Assembly (NCBI RefSeq): GCF_000758525.1
Contig: NZ_CP009241.1
Coordinates: 930,001 to 994,000, forward strand
DNA length: 64,000 nucleotides
Direction: 5' to 3'
Source of the DNA: Paenibacillus sp. FSL H7-0357
Lineage (GTDB): Bacteria; Bacillota; Bacilli; Paenibacillales; Paenibacillaceae
The position numbers and the translations under genes were made by a program. A model generated the notes under the pieces. It was given only the letters and a program-made list of their open reading frames with translations, made no database searches and was not told the origin of the DNA. Shown here piece by piece: positions 16,407 through 57,747 of this stretch; within the stretch, counting starts at the first letter, position 1; each line of letters opens with the position of its first letter.

Positions 16407-16408
16407 GG

Positions 16409-21516: not shown

Positions 21517-21543
21517 AAAACAGTAGAGAGAAGGAACCGGACC

Positions 21544-24441: not shown

Positions 24442-24602
24442 TATGAAAAAATAAGGGGAATCAAGATTTTACTACCAGCAGGAGGTGCTGCCAAACCGTT
24501 TTCCGCCAGAAGCTCACTGGAATGAAGAGAACTGAAATTGCCGCAACTATAGGATGAAGACTGGATTTGTACAGCATATTACACTTGGGAGGTTATTTAC
24601 TA

Positions 24603-25688: not shown

Positions 25689-25690
25689 GG

Positions 25691-26653: not shown

Positions 26654-26656
26654 AAA

Positions 26657-27478: not shown

Positions 27479-27482
27479 GAAC

Positions 27483-28271: not shown

Positions 28272-28287
28272 ACGGAGGCATAACGCA

Positions 28288-29352: not shown

Positions 29353-29371
29353 CGCTTCATAAGGAGCATAC

Positions 29372-41139: not shown

Positions 41140-42144
41140 CTAGTCCCTAATGATCACATCTGCCTGTATAAGTGTTTTTTCATAACTCGTGCCTGGATTG
41201 AGGATTCTCCACAGCAGCTGATCTACAGCTCTTGTACCAAGCAGCTCCTTATTGACATTAACGGTCGCCAGGAATGGTATGGAAGGATGCGTATTGTCAA
41301 AACCGGTAAACACCAAAGTGTCGGGTATAGCCATGCCCATAAATTCGAACGTCTCCATGGCGAACAAGGCGTAAATATCGTTTGCGCATACAAAGACCTC
41401 GGGCAGTCCGTGTTCGGTAATGGCAGCCGCGAAGGTTTCCCTGAAGTTATCAATTTCGGGTCCGTTAAGTGAAGGGATCTGCTTAAGTTCGATATCGTTA
41501 TCTTCGAGTGCTGCCCGAAAGACAAGGAATCGTTCATAAAAACTATGGGCATCACGTATGTTTCCAAGGAATTGATAGTCCCGGTAGCCCTTATTAATGA
41601 CAAAGTTCATCATTTCTTTCATGGATGACGGATTATCGGTAAAGATGGAATCGCAATGAAAGCTGGGGTCGGAGTGATCCACCATCATGACCGGAATGCC
41701 CAGACTACGAATCTCTACCAGAATAGGTGTTGAAATGGAACCTACCGTAATCACACCCATGATCGCTTCAGGGTTAAGAAGAGAAAACATCGAGTCGTCT
41801 TTAGGTTCCGTTAATGTTAATACGTTAATGCCCCTCTGATTCAATCTGGAAGAGATACCGCTAAATACCGGTCCCCAATACAAAGATTCCGGGTTCTGGT
41901 AGCGGATGTTTGGAAATAAAACCAGAACTGTGCCGGACCATTTGCGGGCATCCAGATCGACCAGCTCGCCTGGAGTTTGCGCAGACTTAGAGTCTTTAAA
42001 GTAACCAAGCTGTCCGGCGGCCTTGAATATCGTATCTCTCGTCTGTGAACTGACTCCGGGTTTGCCGGATAATGCCCTTGATACTGCAAATTTCGACAGT
42101 CCCGTAAAATCAGCTATGGATTGGATAGTTACTTTACGTCGCAT
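41140..42144 (-). CDS. LacI-family transcriptional regulator
   Basis: A 334-residue repressor. The N-terminal helix-turn-helix and hinge region shows IQSIADFTGLSKFAVSRALS and GKPGVSSQTRD; the rest is a periplasmic-binding-protein-like sensor. ATG 42144 is chosen because TAGGAT lies about 7 bp upstream; ATG 42153 would have no spacing. It is divergent from the large sugar cluster and likely represses it through a site such as the cre-like palindrome at 42563-42576. AT-rich and unlike a CcpA; a locus-specific regulator. Confidence 0.9.
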   Translation of the reverse strand: MRRKVTIQSIADFTGLSKFAVSRALSGKPGVSSQTRDTIFKAAGQLGYFKDSKSAQTPGELVDLDARKWSGTVLVLFPNIRYQNPESLYWGPVFSGISSRLNQRGINVLTLTEPKDDSMFSLLNPEAIMGVITVGSISTPILVEIRSLGIPVMMVDHSDPSFHCDSIFTDNPSSMKEMMNFVINKGYRDYQFLGNIRDAHSFYERFLVFRAALEDNDIELKQIPSLNGPEIDNFRETFAAAITEHGLPEVFVCANDIYALFAMETFEFMGMAIPDTLVFTGFDNTHPSIPFLATVNVNKELLGTRAVDQLLWRILNPGTSYEKTLIQADVIIRD

Positions 42145-42437
42145 ACAAATCATCCTACTTTAATCAGATTATTTTATAATTCCCGAAGACAATTACATTA
42201 CAATTTTACATGAAGAATGAGTGGCTAACACTTGTTTTTTTGAATTTGGTTATTTGCTTCCTTTGGGATGGTTTTGTTATTTTGTTTTAGGGCTATATTT
42301 TTGTTTGGGATTTTTGATTATTGTTATTTTGTTATGCAAAAGATAACATTATTATTTACAATGTACAAGTTAATGACTTATTTACGATATAACTTGTCCT
42401 ATTTCATGGAAAAAGTGAGATTAAGTATAAAAAATGA

Positions 42438-42466
42438 TTGACCGTTTTCTTGGGTGGTGGTAATAT
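42438..42466 (+). promoter_or_regulatory. Promoter of the second sugar cluster
   Basis: TTGACC (42438-42443), a 17-bp spacer and TAATAT (42461-42466), giving a leader of about 155 nt before the first gene. Confidence 0.65.
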
Positions 42467-42562
42467 TTGTTATGTTAAGAAAAACAAAATACAATAACAA
42501 ATAAAGGCGGTGTTCCAAACAAACGAAGGAAATTGTGCTTCTGTTATTTTTTTATGCAGTCG

Positions 42563-42576
42563 TGTAAGCGCTTTAA
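42563..42576 (+). promoter_or_regulatory. Cre/LacI-type operator
   Basis: TGTAAGCGCTTTAA is close to the cre consensus TGWAANCGNTNWCA, centred on AAGCGCTT. It lies about +90 from the predicted transcription start and 53 bp before the first start codon, so it would block elongation or serve the divergent LacI regulator. Confidence 0.55.
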
Positions 42577-42628
42577 CCAGAAGGGGACAGCACTGACGTA
42601 TTCATATCATTAACGGGAGGTTTGACGA

Positions 42629-43990
42629 ATGAGAAAGATAAAGGGGTATTCAGTTTTATTATTATGTTTTGTTTTTTTACTTACAGCCTGCAGTGGCGGA
42701 AACAATGCTGCCAACAATACAAAAGTAAATGCGACTACTGAGCCTGCAGCTACAGAAGCGGCGGTAGAAGCAACAGCAGAAGCAACGGCAGCACCGGTTG
42801 ACATGGGCGGACGTGTAATTAAGGTAGCGGCTTGGTGGGATCTGAAGCCTGCGGGCAATTCAGCCTCTGAGAAGGAACGGCTTGCTAAAATTGCTGAAGT
42901 AGAGAAAAAGTATAACTGCAAGTTCGAATTTGTAAACGTTCCCTTCCAAGAGTTCATGCCTAAATTCACGGCTACCGCGCTTACGGGTGAACCCTTTGCC
43001 GATATCGTCATTATGGAGTACAACTCGGCATGGCCTGCAATCCTCAAGGGACAGCTGCTGAAAGTTAGCGAATATACTACAGCCGCTTCCAATATCAACA
43101 ATGAAGCTAATCTATTGGTTAAGGCACCTCAAATCGCAAACGAGGACTATGCCTTCGCTGAACCCGGCGTCGGTGGTGCGGGCATCCATTACAACCGCGA
43201 TTTGTTCAAAAAACTGGGGCTTCCCGATTTGCAGGAGCTTTATGCCAGTGGACAATGGAATTGGGATAAATTCATCGAAGTCGCCAAACAAGCCACTAAG
43301 GATACGAATAATGACGGTAAAATCGACACTTATGGATTCTCGGGCTGGGCTATCGATATCCTGCGTAACTTCTCCGCAGCTAATGGTGGAAAGCTAGTGG
43401 ACGAAGCCACAAGTACACAAGGTCTGACTGATCCCAAAGTCATTGAAACCGCTGAATTTATAAACCGTTTGTACAACGTTGAAAACGTTGTCAAAGTCAA
43501 AGGGTCAGACAAAGTTGGCTATGACGAATTCAATACCTTCAAAGATGGCGATGTAGCGATGTTCCCGGCTCCGATTTGGAATTTGGGAGATTTGACTTTC
43601 GATTTCGGTGTTGTTCCGTTCCCGAATGGACCCTCAGGATCTCCTGAACTTACCTATGCTGATAACGGCAAGAATGCATTTTTCATTCCTAAAGGTGTAA
43701 AAGATCCACAGGCTGTCTACCAGGCTTTCGAAGATACCTATGATATTACTCAAACCGGAGATTTTCCGAGCCAAGAGTGGCTGGAAAGCATCTACACTCA
43801 TGAAGAAGATGTAGCTATGATGCATGAGCATATCAACAACACAGGCCAGATTCTTTTGGAAACCGCTTACCCGGAATTCCCGACCACCAATTTCATGAAG
43901 GACATTATTGTAAACAATCAATCGGTTACAGCAACAGCCGAGAAATATAAGCCAGAGGCGGAGGCTTCCATTGCCAAGCTAGGCAAGTAA
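42629..43990 (+). CDS. Sugar-binding lipoprotein of ABC importer
   Basis: A 453-residue family 1 solute-binding protein. The lipobox LLTAC gives C21, followed by an Ala/Thr-rich tether. The mature part has VIKVAAWWDLKPAG and NNDGKIDTYGFSGWAID, typical of CUT1 binding proteins that bind oligosaccharides. First gene of the cluster; a 10-bp hairpin follows at 44016-44047. It may serve the permease pair at 53612-55540, since the second binding protein sits directly before the other pair. Confidence 0.92.
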   Translation: MRKIKGYSVLLLCFVFLLTACSGGNNAANNTKVNATTEPAATEAAVEATAEATAAPVDMGGRVIKVAAWWDLKPAGNSASEKERLAKIAEVEKKYNCKFEFVNVPFQEFMPKFTATALTGEPFADIVIMEYNSAWPAILKGQLLKVSEYTTAASNINNEANLLVKAPQIANEDYAFAEPGVGGAGIHYNRDLFKKLGLPDLQELYASGQWNWDKFIEVAKQATKDTNNDGKIDTYGFSGWAIDILRNFSAANGGKLVDEATSTQGLTDPKVIETAEFINRLYNVENVVKVKGSDKVGYDEFNTFKDGDVAMFPAPIWNLGDLTFDFGVVPFPNGPSGSPELTYADNGKNAFFIPKGVKDPQAVYQAFEDTYDITQTGDFPSQEWLESIYTHEEDVAMMHEHINNTGQILLETAYPEFPTTNFMKDIIVNNQSVTATAEKYKPEAEASIAKLGK

Positions 43991-44015
43991 CAGAAGCGGT
44001 TCGTATCGTCATAAG

Positions 44016-44047
44016 AACAGGGGGATGTCTTGGCGACTCCCCCTGTT
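44016..44047 (+). terminator. Hairpin after the first binding-protein gene
   Basis: AACAGGGGGA and TCCCCCTGTT form a perfect 10-bp stem with a 12-nt loop and no T run. It probably stabilises the upstream message or reduces read-through, as in many binding-protein operons. Confidence 0.6.
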
Positions 44048-44130
44048 GTATGAATATAAGATTTCACCATAGCACGTAAGCTCTCCCGTAAAAGGGTGAT
44101 AACCGCTTGCGCTTGTAAGGAGGACTTCTG

Positions 44131-47064
44131 GTGATAAGTAAAATGCGTCAATCCAAAATGGCCAAGAATATAACGCTTGCTGCAATGGCATTATTGATCA
44201 CGCTTCCGGCAGGCTTAAATGTACAGGTAGATGCAAGTGCGCAAGCAACGTCCGCAGTGGAGCAAGTACCCAATGAAACAACGGCTACAGTGGAGACAGC
44301 GGCTTTTAATGAGCATAAATACGTATCCTATTTAACCGAACATGAGGGGGCTTCCAGACCTGATCAAGAAATTGTACTGGAGGCAGCTAATTATAGTCAT
44401 GTTGAGGGCAGCGGCTTCGAGAAGCTGCCGGATTACGAAGGCATGGCAGGCCAATCTCTATTAACGGGGGAATCCGGCAGGGTCGAATGGAATGTTCAAG
44501 TCGCGGAAGAGGGCTTCTATAATTTATCCATGCTGTATTATCCCGTTGAAGGGAAAAGCTCAGCGATTGAGCGCGCCTTATATATTGACGGCAAGCTCCC
44601 TTTTCGGGAAGCAGCTTTCTTGCAGTTTGACCGTATTTGGGTTGACCAATTGGATCAGCTGGTTCAGGACAATCAGGGCAATGATCTGAGGCCTAGACAG
44701 ATTGAGAAACCGGGCTGGAGCGAGAAAGCGTTCCAAGACTCTAACGGTTATGAGAATGAGCCCTTTTTATTTTATTTCTCTAAAGGCTCACACACGTTAA
44801 CTTTGGAATCTTCCAGAGAACCAGTCGTTCTTAAGCAGTTGAAGCTGTTTAAGCAAGCGGAGCCGCTGCCTTATAAGGAAGTAAAGAAGCAATTGGATGC
44901 CGATGGTGTTCAGGCCTCCAGCGGTCAGCTCCTGAGGATCGAGGGAGAGGATGCGGCTGCCAAATCATCGCCAACCTTGTACCCGCTTAGCGAGCGTTCC
45001 AGTGCCGCGGTTCATCCTTACAGTTCTTCCAAGATCAAGATCAATACCATAGGCGGGCTGAATTGGCGAATACCCGGCCAGTGGATTGAATGGGAAATTG
45101 ATGTCCCTGAGACCGGATTATATAAAATGGCCTTTAAGACACAGCAGAATTATGTCAGGGGGATTTATTCCACCCGGAGGCTGACCATAGACGGAATAGT
45201 GCCGTTTGAGGAAATGGCAAAGGTTCCGTTTCGATATAAAAGCTCCTACCGGTTGGACATTATGGGTGGGGACGAACCCTATTTATACAAGCTGGAAAAG
45301 GGCAAACATGTTGTGAGGCTTGAGGTAAGCCTTGGCGAGTTCGCCCCTTTAATTCGCGAGGTAGAGGACAGCCTGTACAATCTCAATTCCATGTACCGCA
45401 AGATCCTGATGATTACGGGAACCAAGCCGGATGAATACCGTGATTACCAGCTGGATAAAAAAGTGCCTGACATGCTTGAGGTGTTTGGTGCCGAACGGGA
45501 CCGATTAACGGGGATTGCCAAGCAATTGGTCCAGTTGTCAGGACAATCGAGTGATCAGGAAGCGCTGCTCAAAACAATGGCACAGCAGTTGGGCGAATTA
45601 ATTGATGATCCGGACACCATTCCAAGAAGACTGGCCGCATATAAGACGAATACCGGAGGACTTGGAACATGGGTACAGACAGCAAGAGAGCAGCCGCTTG
45701 AAGTAGATGCACTTTACTTAGCTTCTCCCGATAAGAAGTTTCCCAAGAAAGGGATGGGTTTTGGCTCGAAGTTTAAGCATGAGACCGCTACCTTCTTCGC
45801 TTCCTTCTTTACCGATTACAACCAAATCGGAAATGTGTCGGAAGAGGATGACCAGAAATCAGTAACCGTCTGGATCGGAAGCGGACGGGATCAGGCGAAT
45901 ACGATGAAGGCCATGATTGATGAGACATTCACATCCGCCACGGGCATTAATGTCAACCTGAAGCTCGTCAACATGACGACATTGCTTCCGGCTACCTTAG
46001 CCGGGCAAGGACCCGATGTAGCGATGCAGATCGGCAATGATCTGCCTGTCAACTTTGCGATGCGCAATGCGGCGGCGGATCTGACACAGTTTACAGACTT
46101 TGATGAAGTGAGCAGCCGTTTCCGGGAAAGCGCAGTTGTACCTTACAGATATGATAGCGGAGTGTATGCCTTACCTGAGACCCAGACCTTTAATATGCTC
46201 TTCTACCGGAAGGACATTTTGGAGGAGCTTCATCTGCAAGTGCCTCAGACTTGGGATGAGGTATCCACTTTACTTGCTGTGCTCAGTAAGAACCATATGC
46301 AGTTTGGACTGCCGGTTGTGGTTCAATCCGCAGTCCAAGGGCAGAACATCCCGCCTAACTCGATGTACGCCGCTCTCTTATTTCAGAATGGCGGACAATT
46401 TTACCGGGATGGCGGACAGGAGTCAGATCTCGATTCGCGGACCGGGATGGAAACGTTCAAGCAATGGACGGAGTTTTACACCGATTACAAGCTTGAGCGT
46501 GAATATGACTTTGCCAATCGCTTCCGCACAGGAGAAATGCCTTTCGGCATAGCCGATTACACACTATATAACCAGCTTTCTGTATTTGCTCCGGAGATTC
46601 GGGGGATGTGGGGCTTCGTGCCGATCCCGGGAACCGTGCAAACAGATGGCACCTTGGACCGGACGGTATCCAGCGGGGGAAGTGCTGTCGTGATGATGGA
46701 TAAGGCCAAAGACAAAGAGGCCTCTTGGGAATTCATGAAATGGTGGACGAGTGAAGAGACGCAAACGGTGTTCGGACGTGAGATGGAAGGGTTAATGGGG
46801 GCGGCAGCCCGTTATCCGACCGCTAACATCAAAGCGTTGGACAGCTTGCCTTGGCCCGTTGCCGATTATGATAATTTGAAAGCCCAGTTCGAGTGGGCCG
46901 AAGGTGTTCCTGAAGTTCCGGGCGGGTATTTCACGGGCAGACATTTATTCAACGCTTTCTACAAAACGGTAGTCGGCGGCGTGGAAGCACGGGAATCCAT
47001 TATGGACTATGTCCAATATATTCAGGACGAGATCACCACCAAACGGAAAGAGTTTGGTCTATAG
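44131..47064 (+). CDS. Large solute-binding protein with N-terminal carbohydrate-binding-like domains
   Basis: A 977-residue exported protein. An N-terminal hydrophobic segment (about 12-32, possible cleavage after VDASA) lacks a lipobox. Two beta-sandwich-like modules (about 75-250 and 268-420) with IVLEAANYSHVEGSG, GRVEWNVQVAEEGFYNLSML and WIEWEIDVPETGLYKMAFK resemble CBM35/6-type domains. A helical linker follows and a family 1 binding-protein fold (about 576-977) starts at SVTVWIGSGRDQAN. This is about twice the usual size for a binding protein. GTG 44131 follows AAGGAGG. Probably captures polymers or long oligosaccharides at the surface for the next two permeases. Confidence 0.85.
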   Translation: MISKMRQSKMAKNITLAAMALLITLPAGLNVQVDASAQATSAVEQVPNETTATVETAAFNEHKYVSYLTEHEGASRPDQEIVLEAANYSHVEGSGFEKLPDYEGMAGQSLLTGESGRVEWNVQVAEEGFYNLSMLYYPVEGKSSAIERALYIDGKLPFREAAFLQFDRIWVDQLDQLVQDNQGNDLRPRQIEKPGWSEKAFQDSNGYENEPFLFYFSKGSHTLTLESSREPVVLKQLKLFKQAEPLPYKEVKKQLDADGVQASSGQLLRIEGEDAAAKSSPTLYPLSERSSAAVHPYSSSKIKINTIGGLNWRIPGQWIEWEIDVPETGLYKMAFKTQQNYVRGIYSTRRLTIDGIVPFEEMAKVPFRYKSSYRLDIMGGDEPYLYKLEKGKHVVRLEVSLGEFAPLIREVEDSLYNLNSMYRKILMITGTKPDEYRDYQLDKKVPDMLEVFGAERDRLTGIAKQLVQLSGQSSDQEALLKTMAQQLGELIDDPDTIPRRLAAYKTNTGGLGTWVQTAREQPLEVDALYLASPDKKFPKKGMGFGSKFKHETATFFASFFTDYNQIGNVSEEDDQKSVTVWIGSGRDQANTMKAMIDETFTSATGINVNLKLVNMTTLLPATLAGQGPDVAMQIGNDLPVNFAMRNAAADLTQFTDFDEVSSRFRESAVVPYRYDSGVYALPETQTFNMLFYRKDILEELHLQVPQTWDEVSTLLAVLSKNHMQFGLPVVVQSAVQGQNIPPNSMYAALLFQNGGQFYRDGGQESDLDSRTGMETFKQWTEFYTDYKLEREYDFANRFRTGEMPFGIADYTLYNQLSVFAPEIRGMWGFVPIPGTVQTDGTLDRTVSSGGSAVVMMDKAKDKEASWEFMKWWTSEETQTVFGREMEGLMGAAARYPTANIKALDSLPWPVADYDNLKAQFEWAEGVPEVPGGYFTGRHLFNAFYKTVVGGVEARESIMDYVQYIQDEITTKRKEFGL

Positions 47065-47085
47065 CGGTAAGGAGGAGGGTCAAGC

Positions 47086-47991
47086 GTGCAAAATTGGTGG
47101 AGCCTGAAGTGGCGGGAAATGAGAGCCAATAAGCATTCGTATATTTTGATGGCGCCGTATATGATATTGTTCGCCGTATTTACGGTCTTGCCTGTCTTGG
47201 TCTCGATCGTGCTTAGCTTCACATACTTCAATATGTTGGAGTTTCCGAAGTTTATAGGCTGGCAGAACTATACCCGCTTATTTCTGGAAGATGATGTCTT
47301 TCTGATTGCCCTCAAAAACACACTGTTATTCGCAGTGATCACAGGGCCGATTAGTTATATCGCCTGTTTTGTTTTTGCCTGGATCATTAATGAGCTGTCT
47401 CCAAAGCTTAGAGCTGTAATGACGCTCGTCTTTTATGCGCCTTCCATTTCGGGAAATGTCTATTTCATTTGGCTCATGATCTTCTCCGGAGACCGGTATG
47501 GAATCATGAACGGATTATTACTGAAGTTTGGCTTTATCCTGGAGCCGATCCAATGGCTCAAAACGGAAGGCTACATTATGCCTATCATCATCCTTGTTCA
47601 ATTATGGCTCAGTCTCGGAACAGGGTTCCTCACGTTCATTGCAGGCCTGCAGACTGTTGATGGAACGTTATATGAAGCGGGAGCTGTGGACGGGATCAAA
47701 AATCGCTGGCAGGAGCTGTGGTACATCACCTTGCCTTCCATGCGCCCGCAATTGATGTTCGGTGCCGTTATCCAGATAACGACCGCGTTTGCCGTAGCTG
47801 ATGTTTCGATTGCGCTGGCAGGGTTCCCGAGCGTGAACTATGCAGCGGAAACCATCGTCACACATTTGATTGATTTTGGCACAACCCGATTCGAAATGGG
47901 CTACGCTTCAGCTATTGCTACCGTGTTGTTCCTGATCATGGTTGGATCGAACCTAATTGTTCAAAAACTGCTTAGAAAGGTGGGTGAATAG
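47086..47991 (+). CDS. Sugar ABC transporter permease (MalF type)
   Basis: A 301-residue CUT1 permease with six predicted helices and the EAA loop TLYEAGAVDGIKNRWQELWY. GTG 47086 follows AGGAGGG. Pairs with the following permease and lies 21 bp after the 977-residue binding protein. No ATPase is encoded in the cluster. Confidence 0.92.
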   Translation: MQNWWSLKWREMRANKHSYILMAPYMILFAVFTVLPVLVSIVLSFTYFNMLEFPKFIGWQNYTRLFLEDDVFLIALKNTLLFAVITGPISYIACFVFAWIINELSPKLRAVMTLVFYAPSISGNVYFIWLMIFSGDRYGIMNGLLLKFGFILEPIQWLKTEGYIMPIIILVQLWLSLGTGFLTFIAGLQTVDGTLYEAGAVDGIKNRWQELWYITLPSMRPQLMFGAVIQITTAFAVADVSIALAGFPSVNYAAETIVTHLIDFGTTRFEMGYASAIATVLFLIMVGSNLIVQKLLRKVGE

Positions 47992-47995
47992 AGGC

Positions 47996-48898
47996 ATGAC
48001 TATCCCCTTTCAAATGAATGCAAAACAACGGTTAAGCCGGTCGATCCGGATGCCGAAAAAGCGGGTGAACCGTTCAGCATGGGGCACTTTATCTTTATTC
48101 GCCCTGCTCACCGTATTTGGAGCATTTATGATTCTACCGCTTGTCTACGCTATTAATAATGCGTTCAAGCCGCTGGATGAAATCTTTATCTTCCCGCCGA
48201 CGTTATTTGTCCGCCATCCAACGATGAACAACTTTATAGATCTGTTTAATCTGCTCGGAAATTCCTGGGTTCCGTTCTCGCGGTATATTTTCAATACGGT
48301 ATTTATTACCGGCACGGGTATTGTCGGTCACGTATTGCTGGCCTCGGCAGCGGCGTACCCTCTCGCTAAACATCATTTTCCCGGCAAAAAGATATTGTTC
48401 AGCATCGTTGTCTTGTCGCTTATGTTTACGCCGGCAGTAACCGCGATGCCAAACTATATGATCATGTCCTGGCTCGGGTTGATTGATACTTACTGGGCAG
48501 TCATTATTCCGGCGTTTGCTTATTCACTGGGTTTATATTTAATGAAGCAATTTATGGAACAGATTCCGGATGTGCTGCTGGAAGCCGCTAAGATAGACGG
48601 GGCAAGCGAATACCGCATTTTTTGGTCCATCGTTATGCCTAACGTAAAGCCGGCTTGGCTGACGCTCATCATTCTATTATTCCAAATTCTATGGGGCAGT
48701 GACGGGAACGGGTTCATTTACAGTGAACAGCTGAAGTCGCTTCATTTTGCGGCGGGCCAAGTGGTGGCCGGGGGAATTGCCCGTTCCGGTGCAGCGGCGG
48801 CGGTAGCTCTCATTTTAATGAGCGTACCCATTACGCTGTTTGTTTTTTCGCAGAGCCGGATTATAGAGACGATGGCTACTTCGGGAATGAAGGACTAA
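47996..48898 (+). CDS. Sugar ABC transporter permease (MalG type)
   Basis: A 300-residue CUT1 permease with six predicted helices and the EAA loop DVLLEAAKIDGASEYRIFW. ATG 47996 is chosen because AGAGG precedes it; a longer frame overlaps the partner gene. The N-terminal basic stretch MPKKRVNRSAWGTL leads into the first helix. Confidence 0.92.
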   Translation: MTIPFQMNAKQRLSRSIRMPKKRVNRSAWGTLSLFALLTVFGAFMILPLVYAINNAFKPLDEIFIFPPTLFVRHPTMNNFIDLFNLLGNSWVPFSRYIFNTVFITGTGIVGHVLLASAAAYPLAKHHFPGKKILFSIVVLSLMFTPAVTAMPNYMIMSWLGLIDTYWAVIIPAFAYSLGLYLMKQFMEQIPDVLLEAAKIDGASEYRIFWSIVMPNVKPAWLTLIILLFQILWGSDGNGFIYSEQLKSLHFAAGQVVAGGIARSGAAAAVALILMSVPITLFVFSQSRIIETMATSGMKD

Positions 48899-48911
48899 GG
48901 GGGGAAGACAG

Positions 48912-50420
48912 TTGATAGCAAAAAAATGGCTGCCCGCGGTTATGGCAGCATCCCTGCTGTTATGTTATGCAGCTCCTGCGCCGGCGTCTGCTGAATCTAC
49001 GCCCTATGAGAGCTACAACTATAATTACTGGGAAGAAGCGGTACCTGCTCCTGCTGCTTATGTACCTGACCGTACCCTATCCGGAAAGGATCTCGGTGTG
49101 GGCGATTTTCTGGATCCCGGCGATATGGTCGTTGCGGCAAGCGGACTGATCTATATTGCTGATAGCGGGAACGGACGGATTATTTGTCTGGATAGCGACT
49201 GGAAGGTCAATAAGGTCATTAGCGGCTTCGATAACAAGGGTAAAGCGGAAAAATTCAAGAATCCAAGCGGATTATATGTTAATCAGGAAGGCAATCTGTT
49301 TATTGCCGATACGGATAACGGGCGTATTGTTGTTCTGTCCCCGGAAGGGGACTTGCTACGAATGATAGAGCAGCCGAAGTCCGATATTTTACCGGCTGAC
49401 TTCAAGTTTATTCCTGTTAAAGTGACCGTAGACCAGGCGGAACGTGTCTATGTCATCGCTAAAGGGATATTCGAAGGGATTATGCAGTTTGATAAAAACG
49501 GCGACTTTATCGGTTATGTCGGTACGAACAAGGTGAAGCGTGACTATACCGAATATTTATGGCGGTTACTCTCCACCAAGGCGCAGAAAGCGCAGATGGC
49601 ACTATTTGTGCCTACAGAGTTTTCCAATATTGATGTTGATTCTAAAGGGTTTCTGTATGCCACGAATATTGATCCGGGCTCGAAGGAACCGATAAAACGT
49701 CTGAATCCATCCGGTGAGGATGTGCTGAAGCGATTCGGATACTTTGATGTTAAAGGTGATATCAGGTTCCGCATCTCTATAGGACCTTCTAAGTTCACGG
49801 ATATTAAAGTTCTTGCCAACGGGATGTACAGTGCTCTTGATGCTAACCAGGGCAAAGTGTTCACGTACAACGATGAAGGTGACCTTCTCTATGTGTACGG
49901 CGGTAAAGGCAACCAGGTCGGAACCTTCAAAATACCGGCAGCCATAGAATTCTCTGGCGGGAACCAGCTCGTACTTGACCGCGGCAAAGGAAACATAGTC
50001 ATCTTCAAGCCAACCCGGTTTGGCACAAGCGTCAATCAAGCGGTAGGGTATCACTATAATGGCGAGGATACCCGGGCTGTCCCGGTGTGGAAGGAAGTTC
50101 TGAAGCTGAATTCCAACTATGATATCGCTTATATCGGCATTGGAAAATCATTGCTGATGGACAAAAGCAATAAAGAGGCGCTGAAATATTTCAAGCTCGG
50201 AATGGACCGCGACGGTTATTCTGTAGCCTTCAAACGGTACCGCAGGGAAGTCATGCAGGAGCACTTCGGAACATTTCTAACCGTGATAATGATCCTGGTG
50301 TCAGGATGGCTTGCTTTCAGGCTCTTACGCTTCTGGAGAAGAAAGCGGCTGTCAGGAAGATCCCGGCAGGCTTCGCAAAACCTTAAGGAGGGTAAAGCCC
50401 ATGAGGCAGGATTTCATTAA
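48912..50420 (+). CDS. Secreted, C-terminally anchored NHL-repeat protein with TPR-like segment
   Basis: A 502-residue protein. Signal peptide 1-27, then a six-bladed NHL-type propeller (about 45-370) with blades such as GLIYIADSGNGRIICLDSDW and GNLFIADTDNGRIVVLSPEG. A TPR-like helix pair (about 378-430: AVPVWKEVLKLNSNYDIAYI) precedes one membrane helix (about 450-472) and a basic tail RRKRLSGRSR. The propeller would face outward. TTG 48912 follows GGGGGGAAG. Directly before YIP1 and DUF5696 genes; the trio recurs as a unit in my recollection of Firmicute genomes, but its role is not established. Confidence 0.82.
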   Translation: MIAKKWLPAVMAASLLLCYAAPAPASAESTPYESYNYNYWEEAVPAPAAYVPDRTLSGKDLGVGDFLDPGDMVVAASGLIYIADSGNGRIICLDSDWKVNKVISGFDNKGKAEKFKNPSGLYVNQEGNLFIADTDNGRIVVLSPEGDLLRMIEQPKSDILPADFKFIPVKVTVDQAERVYVIAKGIFEGIMQFDKNGDFIGYVGTNKVKRDYTEYLWRLLSTKAQKAQMALFVPTEFSNIDVDSKGFLYATNIDPGSKEPIKRLNPSGEDVLKRFGYFDVKGDIRFRISIGPSKFTDIKVLANGMYSALDANQGKVFTYNDEGDLLYVYGGKGNQVGTFKIPAAIEFSGGNQLVLDRGKGNIVIFKPTRFGTSVNQAVGYHYNGEDTRAVPVWKEVLKLNSNYDIAYIGIGKSLLMDKSNKEALKYFKLGMDRDGYSVAFKRYRREVMQEHFGTFLTVIMILVSGWLAFRLLRFWRRKRLSGRSRQASQNLKEGKAHEAGFH

Positions 50421-51021
50421 ATTCCCGCTGCACCTCATTGTGCATCCGTTTGATAGCTTTTGGGATATGAAGTATGAAGGAAAAGGTAAAATCCGGGTAA
50501 CGTTGACGATTTTACTGCTTGTAGTTATTTCGATGGTTTTAAAAAATCAGTTCGCAGGATTCCTTGTCAATTATAATGATCCGCGTCATCTGAATAGTAT
50601 CATACAATTATTAACGATTGTATTTCCCTTCTTTCTGTGGTGCTTATCAAACTGGGCGATCACAACTTTAATGGATGGGGAAGGGAAATTCAAAGAAATT
50701 ATGATGGCCACAGGTTATGCGCTTGTTCCCATCGTGATCATTTATACGCCGATGATTATTGCAAGCCGGTTTATGGCGGAGGAAGAAACGGCTTTTTATT
50801 ATTTGATGATGTCGATCTCCTCCATATGGTTTGTAGCGCTTTTATTCGTTGGTATTATGACCGTCCATCAATATACCGTGCTCAAAACAGTGGTAACGAT
50901 GCTGCTCACGGTTGTTGTCATGGGAATTGTCATATTTCTGGGGACGCTCGTATTAAGTATGCTCCAGCAAATCATCGAGTTCTTCGTTAACATTTATCGG
51001 GAATTAACTTTCCGTACGTAA
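50401..51021 (+). CDS. YIP1-family integral membrane protein
   Basis: A 206-residue protein with five predicted helices (for example VTLTILLLVVISMVL, LLTIVFPFFLWCLSNWAITT, YALVPIVIIYTPMIIA). The cytoplasmic start PLHLIVHPFDSFWDMKYEG is typical of bacterial YIP1-like proteins. ATG 50401 lies 20 bp inside the end of the NHL gene, behind AAGGAGG, so the two are coupled. YIP1 proteins shape membranes or vesicles in eukaryotes; in bacteria the function is unknown. Confidence 0.85.
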   Translation: MRQDFIKFPLHLIVHPFDSFWDMKYEGKGKIRVTLTILLLVVISMVLKNQFAGFLVNYNDPRHLNSIIQLLTIVFPFFLWCLSNWAITTLMDGEGKFKEIMMATGYALVPIVIIYTPMIIASRFMAEEETAFYYLMMSISSIWFVALLFVGIMTVHQYTVLKTVVTMLLTVVVMGIVIFLGTLVLSMLQQIIEFFVNIYRELTFRT

Positions 51022-51035
51022 AGGAGGCCGCACCT

Positions 51036-53615
51036 GTGAAAAATCGTAAAATGCTGGTTGCGGTACTCGCCTGTGCCGCAGCTATTCTAATTCTTGCCGG
51101 TTCTGCCCTGTTCTTCACATCCCGCGGAGTAAAGGCTGTTGAAGCCTCCTCCTATATGGAAGTAACTGCTGAACTGGAAGCCGGAAGCGAGCTAACTGCA
51201 CTGCCTGATTCGTCCAAGGGTGTACCGGGAATGCAACTGGTAGCCGACGATACGGAGCTGTCTTTATACTACAATCCTGAAACCACGGAAGTAGCGGTTA
51301 AGGATAAACGCCAAGGTCATATCTGGTACAGCAATCCTGTCAACCGCGAAGAGGATGCTCTGGCTTCGGGGTTCGAGAAAGAGCTGCTGTCATCGCAGTT
51401 AACAGTGTTGTTCCGTGATGCTGTAGGCACACTAGAATCCTATACGAACTTTGCCCAGAGCATCAGCAGCAAACAGTTTACTGCCGAAAGCATTAAGAAC
51501 GGACTTCGTATTGTGTATACGATTGGAGATACGTCGATCGGAATCGACGCACTGCCTAAGTATATAAGCAAGACGAGAATGGAAGAAAAGGTTCTGTCCA
51601 AGCTCGATAAACCCACGGCAAAATACGTGGGGCTTCGCTACTACCCGAAAGAGGGCGACCCGGAGGTGCTGGAGCGCATAGATGCACAAGTCTCCAAACC
51701 GCTGGTGCTGAGCAAAATGACAGCGGCCTTTACCAAGTCCGGTTATTCTGCAGAAGACCTGGCGTTCGATAATCAGGAGAATGGAGCGGGGGACGGGGCC
51801 GGAACGACCAAGCCGAATTTTATTGTTCCGCTGGAATACCGGTTAGACGGGGGATCTCTGGTTGTATCCGTCCCTGTAAACCAAGTTAAGGAAAGCGGGG
51901 ACTATCAGATTCGCAGCCTTGAGGTGCTCAATATGTTCGGTGCTGCCGATCAGCAGACCGATGGCTATATGCTCGTTCCTGACGGTTCCGGCAGCCTGAT
52001 CCATTTGAATAATGGAAAAGTGAAGGAAGAGCAGTATGTACAGCGTGTGTATGGCCCCGACCCGAATGATAACAGCTATAGACGCGGGCAAGTCAGTGAG
52101 AATGCCAGAATGCCGGTGTTTGGATTAAAGGCTGGTGATGCTGCCTGGTTCGCCGTGATCGAAAAAGGAGATGCCATAGCCAGCATAGCCGCCGATATCA
52201 GCGGCAAGAAGAACTCGTACAATTTCATTCACAGCAGCTACACCTTACGGGGTGAGGATGAGCTTGAACTGTACACCGGATCTACCATTCAGGAAATACA
52301 GCTCCTGAATGAGGAAATTTACAAAGGCGATATTCAAGTTCGCTACAGCTTCCTGAACAATGACGAGGCCAGCTATTCAGGAATGGCTGAGCTCTACCGG
52401 AATAAGCTGGTGACGGAGAAATCACTGCAGCCTTTAGAGGAGGGACAGGGCATTCCTTTTTATCTGGATATGCTGGGGGCTGTCGACAAACAAAAGTCAT
52501 TTCTTGGCGTACCTTACCGGTCCGAGGTGGCAATGACCTCCTTTGAGCAGGCTGCGCAGATTGCCGATCAATTGAAGCAGGACGGCATTGACCGGCTGCT
52601 TATGCGCTATACAGGCTGGTCTTCCAAAGGTGTAAACCATGCTACACCCAATAAGCTGAAGACTGAAGATGTGCTGGGAAGCAAGTCGGAGCTCCTTACA
52701 TTAACGGAAAAGTTGGAGCAATCAGGCGGGACGTTATTCCCTGATGTGGCCTTCCAGCAGATTTACCATGATGATAGCGGCTTTACACCTTCCTCCGACG
52801 CATCCAGATTCGTGACAAGGGAAGAGGCAGAGCTCTATCCATACAATCGGGCATACAACGGGATGGATATGACGCTCGGGAGCTACTATTTATTGTCCCC
52901 TGCCAAGCTGCCTTATTACGTTGACGAGTTTATGAACAGGTATAAATCCTTCGGGATGAAAGGCGTATCTCTGCGGGATCTCGGCAATGTACTCAGCTCG
53001 GATTTCCGGGTTAGCCGTGTTATACAGCGGGAAACGGCCAAACAAATCGTGGAAGAGCAGCTCAGTAAACTCGACCAGAATATCGATCAAACCATGATCG
53101 CAGGGGGGAATGCCTACGCATGGCCTTACTCAGATCATCTGATCAATGTACCGTCATCCTCCAGCGGATTCTTGCTGACCGATGAAGAGATCCCTTTCTA
53201 TGAAATGGTTGTTCATGGCTTTATCAACTATGCAGGGACTCCGGTTAATCTGAGTGATGAGCAGGATCTCAAGCAGCAGATGCTCCGCTCAATTGAGCTG
53301 GGTGCAGCACCCTATTTCTCGTGGTCCTATGAACCCTCCTCCAAGCTGAAGTTCACTCATTTTGACAGCAAGTATGCAACCTATTACAAAGATTGGTACG
53401 ATCAGGCGGTTTCGATGTACAAGGAAGTCAATAAAGTACTCTCCCCCGTACAGAATGCGCAAATCGTGAACCATATACGCCATCAGGAGGGTGTTGTGGA
53501 GGTGCAGTACAGTAATGGTATTTCGATTTATGTGAATCACACAGATAAGGATGTCACCGTCCATGGGTTCGCAATCGGAGCCGGACAATATGGGATAGAA
53601 GGTGAGCAGTCATGA
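51036..53615 (+). CDS. DUF5696-like membrane-anchored protein, probable glycosidase fold
   Basis: An 859-residue protein held by an N-terminal helix (about 5-28). The outer part starts with a beta-sandwich (about 65-400; TELSLYYNPETTEVAVKDKR), continues with a TIM-barrel-like region (about 490-770; KQDGIDRLLMRYTGW, LFPDVAFQQIYHDD, KGVSLRDLGNVL with acidic D648, PYFSWSYEP) and ends with a small beta domain NGISIYVNHTDKDVTVHG. This architecture resembles GH101/GH36-type glycosidases. Activity is inferred, not shown. GTG 51036 follows AAGGAGG. Its stop overlaps the next permease by 4 bp. Confidence 0.75.
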   Translation: MKNRKMLVAVLACAAAILILAGSALFFTSRGVKAVEASSYMEVTAELEAGSELTALPDSSKGVPGMQLVADDTELSLYYNPETTEVAVKDKRQGHIWYSNPVNREEDALASGFEKELLSSQLTVLFRDAVGTLESYTNFAQSISSKQFTAESIKNGLRIVYTIGDTSIGIDALPKYISKTRMEEKVLSKLDKPTAKYVGLRYYPKEGDPEVLERIDAQVSKPLVLSKMTAAFTKSGYSAEDLAFDNQENGAGDGAGTTKPNFIVPLEYRLDGGSLVVSVPVNQVKESGDYQIRSLEVLNMFGAADQQTDGYMLVPDGSGSLIHLNNGKVKEEQYVQRVYGPDPNDNSYRRGQVSENARMPVFGLKAGDAAWFAVIEKGDAIASIAADISGKKNSYNFIHSSYTLRGEDELELYTGSTIQEIQLLNEEIYKGDIQVRYSFLNNDEASYSGMAELYRNKLVTEKSLQPLEEGQGIPFYLDMLGAVDKQKSFLGVPYRSEVAMTSFEQAAQIADQLKQDGIDRLLMRYTGWSSKGVNHATPNKLKTEDVLGSKSELLTLTEKLEQSGGTLFPDVAFQQIYHDDSGFTPSSDASRFVTREEAELYPYNRAYNGMDMTLGSYYLLSPAKLPYYVDEFMNRYKSFGMKGVSLRDLGNVLSSDFRVSRVIQRETAKQIVEEQLSKLDQNIDQTMIAGGNAYAWPYSDHLINVPSSSSGFLLTDEEIPFYEMVVHGFINYAGTPVNLSDEQDLKQQMLRSIELGAAPYFSWSYEPSSKLKFTHFDSKYATYYKDWYDQAVSMYKEVNKVLSPVQNAQIVNHIRHQEGVVEVQYSNGISIYVNHTDKDVTVHGFAIGAGQYGIEGEQS

Positions 53616-54511
53616 GAGGAAGTAAGCTCAGCTTAAATCACAAGCGCTCTTTTCTGGGGATAGCCTTTATTGCGCCATGGCTGCTTGGGTTCGTATTCAT
53701 GTTCGCAACTCCGCTCGTTCAGTCCATCAAATTCAGCTTCAGTAAATTAACTGTAGATCCATCAGGCTTCTCCTTAGATTGGGTAGGCTGGTCCAACTTC
53801 AACAATGCTTTGTTCGTAGATGCAACCTTTAACCGGGTATTAACCGAATCTGTCAGGGATATGGTGCTTAACGTTCCGATGATCCTGTTCTTCAGCCTTT
53901 TCTCGGCAACGCTGCTGAATCAGAAGTTTCGGGGGAGAATTCTGGCCCGGGCCATATTTTTTCTGCCGGTCATTCTGGCCTCTAACGCGATATCGGCGGC
54001 AGAAGCGTCCGGACTGATCAATCTGGTTGGTGATGCGACGGCTGTCAACGAATTGGGCCAATCGGGCTCACAGTACAATGTCATGTCGATGGTTATGATT
54101 CTGAGTGATATCGGGTTGCCGCTGTCGTTCGTGGATTATATTGTAGACGCGATCCTGCGGATCTATGAGATTATTACGAGTTCGGGCGTACAAATTCTGA
54201 TCTTTCTGGCCGCGCTGCAGTCTGTTCCCGGGGCGATGTATGAGGTGGCGAAGATTGAAGGGGCAACCGCCTATGAATCCTTTTGGAAAATCACATTCCC
54301 GCTAGTGAGCCCGCTCATCTTGACCAACGTTATTTATACCATTATCGACTCCTTCTCGGGTAGCAGCGTGACCCAAATGATATTCTCAACCGCATTCACC
54401 ACACAAAACTTCGGTCTCAGTGCGGCGATGTCCTGGATCTATACGCTGATTATCAGCCTCGTCCTGGTTATCGTTGGTTACGTACTGTCTAAAAGAGTGC
54501 ATTACAACTGA
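53612..54511 (+). CDS. Sugar ABC transporter permease (MalF type)
   Basis: A 299-residue permease with six predicted helices and the EAA loop AMYEVAKIEGATAYESFWKI. Its ATG overlaps the DUF5696-like stop as ATGA, so it is coupled to that gene rather than to a binding protein. Pairs with the next gene as a second importer in the cluster. Confidence 0.9.
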   Translation: MRGSKLSLNHKRSFLGIAFIAPWLLGFVFMFATPLVQSIKFSFSKLTVDPSGFSLDWVGWSNFNNALFVDATFNRVLTESVRDMVLNVPMILFFSLFSATLLNQKFRGRILARAIFFLPVILASNAISAAEASGLINLVGDATAVNELGQSGSQYNVMSMVMILSDIGLPLSFVDYIVDAILRIYEIITSSGVQILIFLAALQSVPGAMYEVAKIEGATAYESFWKITFPLVSPLILTNVIYTIIDSFSGSSVTQMIFSTAFTTQNFGLSAAMSWIYTLIISLVLVIVGYVLSKRVHYN

Positions 54512-54535
54512 TTAATAGCAAAGGAGGGTACGGCT

Positions 54536-55540
54536 ATGCAATCTCCTCAACCCGTTCACAGAGAAGCGAATCACTATAGAGTTCAGAAGGTCAGAGGTAA
54601 GGCAGTTGATATTTTGTATGCATTGTTCCGGTACGCACTTGTCATCGGGATTTCATTTATTATTATTTACCCGCTGCTTATGAAATTCTCCATCGCCTTC
54701 AAGGATAAAGCAGATATTTATAATCCGACGATTTATATGATACCGGTCCACTTTACGCTGGATAACATCAAGATGGCGATGCAGATTCTGGATTATTTTC
54801 CGCTGCTGGGGAATACCTTGCTCTTCGTCGTAGTGACAACGCTGCTGACTACGGCTTCCTGCGCCTTGGCGGGTTATGGCTTTGCCCGGTTCAACTTTCC
54901 GGGAAGCAACATCCTGTTTGCGCTCGTCATTCTAACCTTGCTTGTACCTACCGGCACACTGATGGTGCCTATGTACCTGCATTTCCGAAGCTTTGATATT
55001 CTGGGGATTATTCATCTGATCACAGGCAAAGAAGGCATCAACCTGCTCAATACGTATTGGCCTTCCATTATTACATCAGCGACAGCGATTGGATTAAAAG
55101 CAGGCTTGTTCATCTATATTTTCCGCCAATTCTTCAAAGGAATGCCGAAAGAAATTGAAGAAGCCGCTTTGATTGACGGCGCGGGAGGCGTTAAAACATT
55201 CCTGCGGATCATGCTGCCTAATGCAGTCTCCCCGATGATCACAGTCATTTTGTTCTGCTTTGTCTGGCAGTATAACGATACCTTCTTTACCTCCCTCTTC
55301 ATGAGTGAAGTGGCGCTTATGCCTACGAAGGTCAGCTCGCTGGCGGCTCAGGCCAATGCCTTACTTCCGGGGTTACTTGGGATAGGTGCAGGCGGGTCTA
55401 GTATTAAGGCAGATCCAAACCATGTGGCCATGATTATTGATACCGGCATCTTGCTGGCCATTATCCCGCTGATCTTGCTGTATATGGTGGTGCAGCGTTA
55501 TTTCGTAGAAAGCGTTGAACGCAGCGGTATTATTGGTTAA
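54536..55540 (+). CDS. Sugar ABC transporter permease (MalG type)
   Basis: A 334-residue permease with six predicted helices and the EAA loop EIEEAALIDGAGGVKTFLRI. About 30 residues longer than typical, with an insert around residues 145-185 (HFRSFDILGIIHLITGKEG). ATG 54536 follows AAGGAGGG. A terminator follows before the GH5 gene. Confidence 0.9.
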   Translation: MQSPQPVHREANHYRVQKVRGKAVDILYALFRYALVIGISFIIIYPLLMKFSIAFKDKADIYNPTIYMIPVHFTLDNIKMAMQILDYFPLLGNTLLFVVVTTLLTTASCALAGYGFARFNFPGSNILFALVILTLLVPTGTLMVPMYLHFRSFDILGIIHLITGKEGINLLNTYWPSIITSATAIGLKAGLFIYIFRQFFKGMPKEIEEAALIDGAGGVKTFLRIMLPNAVSPMITVILFCFVWQYNDTFFTSLFMSEVALMPTKVSSLAAQANALLPGLLGIGAGGSSIKADPNHVAMIIDTGILLAIIPLILLYMVVQRYFVESVERSGIIG

Positions 55541-55568
55541 CAGAATACGTTGCTTCATGGAGAAATGA

Positions 55569-55607
55569 AATGCTGGAGACCCGCGTAATGTGCCTCCAGC
55601 ATTTTTT
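55569..55607 (+). terminator. Terminator directly before the GH5 start
   Basis: ATGCTGGAG (55570-55578) pairs with CTCCAGCAT (55594-55602), followed by six Ts ending at 55607. Only 20 bp, occupied by the ribosome binding site, separate it from the GH5 ATG, leaving no room for a promoter. Confidence 0.75.
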
Positions 55608-55627
55608 ATTAGGAAGGGAGCCGGATA

Positions 55628-57553
55628 ATGAAGCCTAAACGTTTGTTCGTCATGATTTGTATGTTGCTGCTGGCCGTGACGGTGACAGTGACGGCTCTAC
55701 CTGCGCATGCAGAAACCAAAGAAAAGAGGAGTGCCATGCAAGCTTACGTCGAAGCCATCGGACCGGGCTGGAATCTAGGAAACACCTTCGAAGCTACGGG
55801 TGAGGAAACTTCATGGGGAAACCCGAGTACAACCCAGGCATTTATTAAGCAAATTGCTGCTGAAGGCTACAAAAGCATCCGCATCCCGATTACCTGGAAG
55901 CACCGGATGGGCGGCGCTCCTGATTATGTGATCCAGAAAGAGTTTATGGCACGGATTCAAGAAATCGTCGACTGGTCGCTGGCTGCGGATCTTCATGTCA
56001 TCATTAACCTTCATCACGATACGGGCTGGGTCCTGAACATGGAGACGGAGCATGATGATGTGGTTGCCAGATTCAATGCGGCCTGGACGCAGATTGCGGG
56101 GCATTTCAAGGATTATCCGGACACGCTGATGTTTGAGAGCCTGAATGAGCCGCGCTTTTCCGAGGATTGGAGCAAGGACACCCCTGAATATTTTACGATG
56201 CTGGATGAACTGAATGTTTCTTTTCATGCTATCGTTCGTCATTCCGGCGGGAGTAACAATAAGCGTCCGCTCGTACTTTCTACTCTTACGGCTGCTCCAA
56301 CCCAGGCCAGACTGGATGAGTTAGCCAAAACCATTACGAAATTAAACGACGATAGGCTGATTGCGACATTCCACTACTATGGATATTATGCGTTCAGTGT
56401 GAACCTTGGAGGTTCGACCACATTCGATAACACGGCCAGGGAGGATCTGATTCAGGCTTTCGACCGGGCTTACGATACCTTCACCGCCAAAGGGATTCCT
56501 GTTATCGTGGGGGAGTTTGGCCTGCTTGGGTTCGATAAATCGCTGGATACTGTTCAGCATGGCGAAATTTTGAAGTTTTTTGAATACATAACCTACTATG
56601 CTCGGGAAAAAAAGATGCCGCTGATGCTGTGGGATAACGGCCAGCATTTCGATAGGCGCACCCTCAAGTGGGTGGATGAGGAGCTTCATCAGGTGATGAA
56701 GCAGGGCTGGAAGGGCCGCTCCTCCAACGCGGAAACGGATTCGGTCTATATTCTTAAAGATTCGGAAATTAAGGATCTGGTCATTCCCCTGAATTTGAAC
56801 GGGAATACCTTCACCGCTCTGCTCAATCAGGAAAATGCGTTAGTGAAAGGTACGGATTATGAGCTTGACGGAGAAAACTTAATCCTCAAATCTGCATTGC
56901 TGCAAAAGCTTGTCACGAAGAAGTATGGAATAAATGCGACCTTAACCGCTACGTTCAGTGCAGGTGCCGACTGGAAAATAAATATTATTTATTATGACAC
57001 GCCCAGCCTGATTAGTGCGCAAGCCCCGGAGGGGATATTCACGATCCCGACCTGGTTCAACGGGGACAGCCTGGCGACACTGGAAGCCGTCTATACGGCT
57101 GGCGGCAATGCCGGTCCCAATGATTGGACTCCCTTCAAGGAGTACAAACGTACCTTCTATCCGGACTATACCACTGGAGAGATCAAGTTCACGGACGAAT
57201 TCTGGAAGGAAGTGAAGGATGAAGAAGTGCAGCTGAAGCTGCATTTCTGGAGCGGCGCAGTGATCCCGTATACGATTACAAAAGCAAGCGGGAAGATCGT
57301 AGGGGTATCCGCAGAGGAAGCGAAGAAGAGAGCGGCAGTAGAACAACAAGCAGTTGAACAAGCAGCCGAAACACCGGTAGACACACCGGCAGACTCTGGC
57401 GATTCAGCAGCAGCAGCCGTTTCAGCACAGCTCTCCGGCGATAAATCTCCATCAGATGAAGGAAATCATATCCTGAGCATCCCGGTGGCGGTAGCCTCAC
57501 TCCTGGTCTTGGCAGGTGCGGGAATGTACTGGTGGAGAGCAAAGAGGCGATAA
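55628..57553 (+). CDS. GH5 endo-glycanase with X2-like module and C-terminal membrane anchor
   Basis: A 641-residue exported enzyme. Signal peptide 1-28; GH5 barrel (about 30-350) with GPGWNLGNTFEA, acid/base E174 in FESLNEPRF and nucleophile E296 in PVIVGEFGLLG; an X2-like Ig module (about 372-458); a second beta module (about 460-560); an Ala-rich linker; a membrane helix (about 618-635) and a basic tail WWRAKRR. No LPXTG sorting motif. The N-terminal motif resembles GH5 endoglucanase and xyloglucanase groups, so a beta-glucan or mannan is the likely substrate. Expression must depend on read-through of the terminator just upstream, or on a promoter within it. Confidence 0.92.
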   Translation: MKPKRLFVMICMLLLAVTVTVTALPAHAETKEKRSAMQAYVEAIGPGWNLGNTFEATGEETSWGNPSTTQAFIKQIAAEGYKSIRIPITWKHRMGGAPDYVIQKEFMARIQEIVDWSLAADLHVIINLHHDTGWVLNMETEHDDVVARFNAAWTQIAGHFKDYPDTLMFESLNEPRFSEDWSKDTPEYFTMLDELNVSFHAIVRHSGGSNNKRPLVLSTLTAAPTQARLDELAKTITKLNDDRLIATFHYYGYYAFSVNLGGSTTFDNTAREDLIQAFDRAYDTFTAKGIPVIVGEFGLLGFDKSLDTVQHGEILKFFEYITYYAREKKMPLMLWDNGQHFDRRTLKWVDEELHQVMKQGWKGRSSNAETDSVYILKDSEIKDLVIPLNLNGNTFTALLNQENALVKGTDYELDGENLILKSALLQKLVTKKYGINATLTATFSAGADWKINIIYYDTPSLISAQAPEGIFTIPTWFNGDSLATLEAVYTAGGNAGPNDWTPFKEYKRTFYPDYTTGEIKFTDEFWKEVKDEEVQLKLHFWSGAVIPYTITKASGKIVGVSAEEAKKRAAVEQQAVEQAAETPVDTPADSGDSAAAAVSAQLSGDKSPSDEGNHILSIPVAVASLLVLAGAGMYWWRAKRR

Positions 57554-57747
57554 TATTGCGAATGGGATTTCATTTGGATACAGTACAAACAAGTCTTCTT
57601 GCCAGGTTTTACTCTGGCAGGTTAGAATACGATTATCCTGCAGAACCAGTATAAATAAACGATACGACAAGCAGCAGGCCTCTCTTTGGAAGCTTGCTGT
57701 TTGTTATATCGGCAATTTCTTCGGGGGAATTTGAAGGGTGGTCCGAA

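Follow-up and report, generated by a model that had tools for sequence, protein, structure and literature searches.

Paenibacillus sp. FSL H7-0357 carries a rightward run of sugar-importer genes in which an NHL beta-propeller gene, a YIP1 membrane protein gene and a large gene of the DUF5696 family lie between two pairs of permease genes, and the question raised by this locus is whether these three genes belong to the importer or only happen to lie there. We analysed a stretch of 64,000 nucleotides (positions 930,001 to 994,000 of contig NZ_CP009241.1), hereafter the window, from a 7.7-Mb genome on one contig that holds one DUF5696 gene only; the genes in question, hereafter the cassette, and their divergent regulator span positions 41140 to 57553. 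An earlier reading of this DNA from its sequence alone (the sequence-only reading) had taken the trio for a part of the importer, and we found that DUF5696 sits in the cassette at every readable locus. The locus would work like that of an ATP-binding cassette (ABC) sugar importer; what is new is an undescribed obligate accessory core, for which the best reading is a membrane-anchored capture and assembly module of MsmX-type ABC importers.

We first describe the cassette as it stands in the window. All the genes that the sequence-only reading had named (two solute-binding proteins, two permease pairs, NHL, YIP1, DUF5696, GH5 and a divergent LacI regulator) are present, and from 42629 to 57553 they run on the plus strand in the following order, preceded by the regulator:

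41140..42153, minus strand: LacI-family regulator, divergent from the cassette (Pfam LacI helix-turn-helix and Peripla_BP_3)
42154..42628, no strand: divergent control region with candidate operator motifs and a cre-like site
42629..43990, plus strand: SBP1, a solute-binding protein (SBP) with a lipobox-like start seen by eye (SBP_bac_1)
44131..47064, plus strand: xS, the second SBP, 977 aa (Pfam SBP families at residues ~589-881; SBP fold in the AlphaFold model)
47086..47991, plus strand: permease A1 of pair 1 (BPD_transp_1, EAA motif, own clade)
47957..48898, plus strand: permease B1 of pair 1, the real start probably downstream of the TTG (BPD_transp_1, EAA motif, own clade)
48912..50420, plus strand: NHL beta-propeller with a signal-like start seen by eye, an additional C-terminal part and a C-terminal hydrophobic segment at 454-472 (Pfam NHL repeats)
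50401..51021, plus strand: YIP1 membrane protein with five hydrophobic segments (Pfam Yip1, 57.8 bits)
51036..53615, plus strand: DUF5696 protein with an N-terminal hydrophobic segment at 7-25 and a GH129-like fold behind it (PF18952, 748 bits; predicted model; Foldseek)
53612..54511, plus strand: permease A2 of pair 2 (BPD_transp_1, EAA motif, own clade)
54536..55540, plus strand: permease B2 of pair 2 (BPD_transp_1, EAA motif, own clade)
55628..57553, plus strand: anchored GH5 enzyme with a C-terminal hydrophobic segment at 615-633 (Pfam Cellulase, CBM_X2 and CBM46)

The overlapping or very short junctions noticed earlier are confirmed, every junction from xS through B2 being an overlap or a gap no longer than 24 bp; the distances that separate SBP1 and GH5 from this core are 140 and 87 bp, respectively. 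A scan for promoter-like and terminator-like sites gave fewer of them than expected from shuffling and lends no support to internal signals. The YIP1 open reading frame (ORF) opens at 50311, and we place its start at position 50401, an ATG that overlaps with the stop of NHL, because relatives are commonly 206-208 aa long.

We then asked how constant this arrangement is. Of 118 genomes in the family of the window, taken here to be Paenibacillaceae, 77 have DUF5696, two of them with nine matches or more; in a sample of 299 genomes from the phylum it is present in at least 26, at no fewer than 45 places (E ≤ 1e-20, with up to four candidates scored per genome, so that both phylum counts are lower bounds). 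The loci examined comprise 40 of the 44 other places of the phylum sample, the window and 80 named loci among the matches listed by a pattern scan, i.e. 121 loci, 119 of them distinct, in which NHL, YIP1 and permeases were searched in all six reading frames. All 114 distinct loci with 2.5 kb or more of upstream sequence have NHL and YIP1 immediately before DUF5696, and all 115 with 2.2 kb or more of downstream sequence have a permease pair immediately after it; when the phylum sample is taken alone, window excluded, the figure is 37 of 37 in both cases. A plasmid cassette of Butyrivibrio shows the same core order, together with GH43 and histidine kinase genes. The linkage also holds in the reverse direction. 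Among 29 family genomes with complete DUF5696 match lists, both NHL and YIP1 occur within 4 kb and on the same strand for each of the 46 DUF5696 genes, and all 46 strong NHL matches adjoin DUF5696, the best NHL match in 20 genomes devoid of DUF5696 reaching 37.3 bits. YIP1-family matches are beside DUF5696 in 46 of 60 cases; the 14 others, six of them in genomes without DUF5696, are expected since YIP1 is a broad family. The reverse test rules out bystander genes, and the trio, far from being found mostly away from permeases, is part of an importer locus as the sequence-only reading had proposed.

The rest of the cassette is less constant. Among the 102 loci having at least 7.5 kb upstream, the upstream permease pair is present in 90 and xS, anywhere in the locus, in 92; ten loci have neither, and all ten carry a fused NHL-YIP1. 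The first SBP-permease set is missing from these ten loci, which rules out an obligate two-importer unit; because of these ten loci, we consider NHL-YIP1, DUF5696 and pair 2 as the minimal unit, and xS with pair 1 as a very common extension.

NHL and YIP1 are a single fused protein of 672-835 aa in 41 of the 114 distinct loci. In a plasmid cassette of Paenibacillus cellulosilyticus (L155), a 719-aa protein annotated as 'YIP1 family protein' aligns with the window NHL as well, across 513 columns (E 9e-66). By hydropathy, one segment follows the propeller and five are found in YIP1, in line with the five-helix protein described earlier, and the signal-like start and single C-terminal segment imply that the propeller should face outward. 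We infer that NHL and YIP1 form one outward-facing membrane protein.

All four permeases belong to BPD_transp_1 and keep the EAA coupling motif in alignments, so that the two permeases expected of an importer are found in each pair. We built trees from 210 A-type and 214 B-type permeases, all from the examined loci; the smallest tree side containing all members of a class included 4 (A2), 8 (A1), 4 (B2) and 10 (B1) others. All of these 26 extra permeases are on the DUF5696 strand, 21 of them at the expected cassette place and the other five 4.8-6.5 kb downstream in three loci (L061, L067 and L068) where xS is also downstream; by their strand and position, they are unlabelled cassette permeases and no intruders. 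As judged from these trees, in which the outside control consists only of the remaining 15 A-type and 13 B-type proteins, both pairs are dedicated lineages. At the level of sequence, the obligate linkage, the NHL-YIP1 fusion, the gene content and the dedicated permease lineages are the firm features of the system.

The importers had been described as ATPase-less. The Pfam scan indeed revealed no MalK-type ATPase in the window cassette, three OB_MalK proteins being encoded elsewhere in the genome, and an ABC-ATPase-like ORF was found by motif search in 5 of the 121 loci; the ABC ATPase of the window starts at 28288, outside the cassette. We know of no MsmX-type system that carries the NHL/YIP1/DUF5696 trio; the likeness of the window cassette to such importers lies in its EAA-motif permeases and the absence of an ATPase gene. 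The absence is an ordinary trait, as importers can share an MsmX-type ATPase according to the accessible part of PMC7658222. In the P. cellulosilyticus plasmid cassette, a UgpC ATPase gene lies directly upstream, which hints at ABC import. The ATPase ORF of the window belongs to a separate region (24567-31096) composed of importer genes, an SBP_bac_6/8 protein and this ABC ATPase with TOBE_2 (28288-29352), followed by an adenine deaminase gene; the best NCBIfam scores of the ATPase are for PhnT2 and PotA-like models, both below cut-off.

The extracellular SBP of a type I carbohydrate ABC importer is represented by both SBP1 and xS, each through SBP_bac_1 and xS also through its SBP fold. Residues preceding the SBP families of xS gave no Pfam match at E 0.01. 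Its AlphaFold model (predicted local distance difference test, pLDDT, 88) displays two beta-sandwiches (~62-258 and 262-402), a helical domain (404-519) and the SBP domain (~577-977), most of whose best Foldseek matches bind oligosaccharides. The two sandwiches are mutually homologous (E 4e-25); the second matches a cycloisomaltooligosaccharide glucanotransferase (5x7g, E 3e-7) in a region that we take to be a CBM35, and the first has weaker matches of similar kind (best E 0.0013). On the predicted structure, xS carries two modules resembling carbohydrate-binding modules (CBMs) ahead of its SBP domain. This large size is general, 91 of 93 xS ORFs having at least 950 aa and the two shorter ones beginning at a contig or stretch end. 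Over the 63 loci with all genes, SBP1 varies most among the eight proteins of the cassette that were compared, with a median pairwise identity of 0.30, against 0.38 for DUF5696, 0.45 for NHL, 0.50 for xS, 0.53/0.52 for pair 2 and 0.69/0.70 for pair 1. This lowest identity suggests that SBP1 may be the specificity part.

We scanned the first gene downstream of the cassette in 86 loci and the window. Among the best 25 of 73 families listed, the glycoside hydrolase (GH) families GH26 (19), GH30_2 (10), GH5 (6), GH43 (4), GH10 (3) and GH38 (3) stand out over the 87 neighbours; the ten GH families listed total 53 matches, some proteins possibly counting twice. In three relatives scanned one by one, GH26 occupies the slot that GH5 takes in the window. 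The enzyme next to the cassette is exchangeable. GH5 as a core part is ruled out by these 6 neighbours and by 9 matches in 1813 ORFs, and the anchored GH5, earlier listed with the other genes of the run, is not one of its fixed parts. The domain order of the window enzyme (GH5-CBM_X2-CBM46) is also that of BlCel5B (GH5_4-Ig-CBM46; accessible part of PMC4817029), from which it differs by its extra C-terminal hydrophobic segment. A second sugar locus, at least ~19 kb upstream of the cassette (11454-23700), encodes a histidine kinase, an AraC-type response regulator and, on the minus strand, permeases and an SBP, divergent from GH2 mannosidase-like and GH36 alpha-galactosidase genes (18964-23700); it looks galactomannan-related. 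Given the enzyme-slot families, the BlCel5B-like order and the upstream GH2/GH36 genes, beta-1,4-linked mannan or glucan hemicellulose oligosaccharides are the favoured substrates for the window copy.

DUF5696 itself had been described as a large anchored protein with a glycosidase-like fold. A profile built from 25 sequences finds GH129 proteins of solved structure (5opq, E 6e-13; 5wzn, E 2e-7), and the predicted structure (mean pLDDT 86) retrieves by Foldseek eleven GH129 entries first (among them 5opq, E 5e-34, and 5wzq, TMt 0.75), followed by EngBF/GH101 and then GH36. Both profile and model thus assign a GH129 fold to DUF5696 and specify the earlier description.

From these elements we propose, with slightly better than even confidence, that this is a type I (carbohydrate) ABC import locus extended by a fixed accessory module bound to the membrane, and that it would work as follows. 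The anchored endo-glycanase would cut beta-linked plant hemicellulose, presumably glucomannan, mixed-linkage glucan or xyloglucan, at the cell surface. Fragments would be caught by xS, with its two CBM-like modules, and by the more variable SBP1, and would enter via the two dedicated permease pairs, SBP1 probably serving pair 2 and xS pair 1, energized by a shared MsmX/UgpC-type ATPase presumably encoded elsewhere. The NHL propeller and the YIP1 bundle may form an assembly platform keeping the anchored DUF5696 beside pair 2, and DUF5696 would more likely bind or orient the oligosaccharide than hydrolyse it. Note that the platform idea has a precedent in YknW, a Yip1-family protein that modulates ABC transporter assembly according to the accessible part of PMC4887032.

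Several observations weigh against this reading. The P. cellulosilyticus plasmid cassette has four LLM flavin-dependent oxidoreductase genes downstream and no glycanase in the part displayed, neighbours that suggest a different cargo; two other cassettes lie beside LtrA/HAD genes (L058) and arginase/saccharopine dehydrogenase genes (L069). The glycan link drawn earlier thus holds for the many loci where a hemicellulase is often next downstream, but 'glycan' may be too narrow a term because some distant cassettes have no adjoining glycan enzyme. In addition, the identity correlations between cassette proteins are uncorrected for species history. These cassettes, the first of them with its UgpC gene, favour a general platform for importing various glycosides or other large solutes, of which plant glycans would be the commonest case. 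This explanation overlaps with the import locus proposed above, and we place it short of an even chance, given the GH matches among the downstream neighbours and the mostly oligosaccharide-binding relatives of the xS SBP domain.

The remaining points against the import locus as proposed concern the active site of DUF5696. The nucleophile and acid/base places were set by spacing and predicted secondary structure, with no superposition; on this mapping, D648, in the column directly after a barrel strand, is the likely counterpart of NagBb Asp435, the catalytic Asp shared with ZgGH129 Asp486 (accessible part of PMC5698469), and is acidic in 97 of the 121 sequences. The presumed acid/base place on the next strand is an Asn (N692) in 116. 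The conservation of N692, D656 (Asp in 114), D716 (Asp in 111) and E754 (Glu in 120) would be expected from a catalytic role as well, and D570, an acidic residue in 104, aligns with a NagBb residue mutated in 5wzq and could still bind a metal. In a rival explanation, DUF5696 would represent a new family related to GH129 and act as a glycosidase that trims captured oligosaccharides at the membrane, with NHL-YIP1 as an anchor only. The GH129 fold and the remaining acidic set speak for it, as does ZgGH129, which is active while keeping just one of the two NagBb catalytic residues (same source, accessible part). We nevertheless hold it to be unlikely. The presumed acid/base place lacks a conserved acid, and the D648 column is non-acidic in 24 of the 121 sequences; of the corresponding loci, 23 contain NHL, YIP1 and permeases, the last one (L070) being a 4.7-kb contig with NHL and YIP1. 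Moreover, the neighbouring enzymes vary while DUF5696 is constant, which makes one fixed trimming activity less likely.

Other residues of the NagBb site also differ. Three of the four residues replaced in the quadruple Ala mutant 5wzq, presumed to form a metal site, align with R524, T526 and D570, and the fourth falls in a gapped stretch; the R524 column has no His in 121 sequences and the T526 column is acidic in 2, so that the NagBb residue is retained at none of the three aligned places. A search for GH129 genes in 199 genomes (E ≤ 1e-20) gave no match, and neither did its control, so that absence is not implied; a barrel-only profile did not improve the coverage of the mapping, and on both counts the catalytic residue assignment stays indirect. 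DUF5696 thus resembles GH129 (NagBb, ZgGH129/DagB) in fold and profile, and differs from it in the lost NagBb site residues, in a GH129 active site that is not clearly conserved, in its membrane anchor and in its association with an importer. The conserved D570, D656, D716 and E754 indicate that a ligand pocket probably persists. For many lineages we predict a binding or orienting protein, more likely than a hydrolase.

A sensor or signalling module reporting external sugar, in which NHL-YIP1 and DUF5696 would take no part in transport, is very improbable: an outward propeller joined to a membrane bundle and the regulator gene adjoining many loci would suit it, but the trio contains no kinase, receiver or DNA-binding domain in Pfam, the regulator kinds differ (LacI, AraC, response regulator, GntR) while the trio is constant, and the permease pair after DUF5696 is invariable, with short junctions in the window.

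Returning to the accessory module of an ABC importer, a stronger version can be put forward only tentatively, as we find it somewhat doubtful: NHL-YIP1, DUF5696, xS and both permease pairs would assemble into a single stable complex at the surface, where a pseudo-enzyme of GH129 fold and a propeller on a YIP1 scaffold pass captured oligosaccharides to two coupled importers. It would be a single-membrane counterpart of Sus capture, with the cargo changed by swapping the enzyme and SBP1. The likeness to the Sus systems of Bacteroidota is one of concept (anchored enzyme, surface binding proteins, transporter); a Sus homologue is ruled out, no SusC/SusD or TonB-dependent Pfam family being found in the cassette.

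Two other known systems share features with the locus. The window locus unites a regulator (LacI), a polysaccharide-degrading enzyme (GH5) and carbohydrate transport (the ABC importer parts), as defines a Gram-positive polysaccharide utilization locus (gpPUL). The mixed-linkage glucan gpPUL of Blautia producta likewise joins a regulator, an endo-glycanase and an ABC sugar importer; the six proteins listed for it in the accessible part of PMC10318527 include a single SBP, a single permease and an ATPase, and none is NHL, YIP1 or DUF5696, in contrast to the fixed accessory module, CBM-bearing SBP and two permease pairs of the window. YknWXYZ likewise has a Yip1-family protein alongside an ABC transporter as assembly partner (PMC4887032, accessible part). 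It is an efflux pump with MacA/MacB-like parts, whereas the YIP1 of the cassette is paired or fused with NHL and importer-associated; neither a MacA-like YknX nor a MacB-like YknZ appeared in the Pfam scan of the window cassette, the Yip1 family being the sole match. We found no cassette-specific NCBIfam model for NHL, YIP1 or DUF5696, and no description of DUF5696 or of this gene set in a literature search made partly by title, with most subscription papers and all bioRxiv preprints outside its coverage.

Upstream of the cassette, Peripla_BP_3 is found in 41 of the 73 neighbours scanned, window included. The control region contains TTTGTTATTT and TGTTAT-N7-ATAACA, as well as a site near 42562, TGTAAGCGCTTTAA, that resembles a catabolite-responsive element (cre) by eye. 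TTTGTTATTT or its complement AAATAACAAA occurs in 16 of 24 divergent-regulator intergenic regions, versus a simulated mean of 0.4 and maximum of 3, an enrichment overstated because the motif was picked post hoc from the same 24 sequences and relatedness is uncorrected. We consider TTTGTTATTT as a candidate operator of the LacI-type regulator. Directly after the cassette lie a 202-aa ORF with no Pfam match (57694-58302) and a 707-aa protein (58353-60476) whose Pfam matches, at residues ~440-580, are all methyltransferase-type families or MetW.

Overall, these data suggest that a co-travelling set of surface proteins and two importers constitutes a so far undescribed type of uptake machine, mostly for plant-derived sugars. 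It offers a testable role for three little-known protein types together, and would widen the known composition of ABC sugar importers in Gram-positive plant-biomass degraders.

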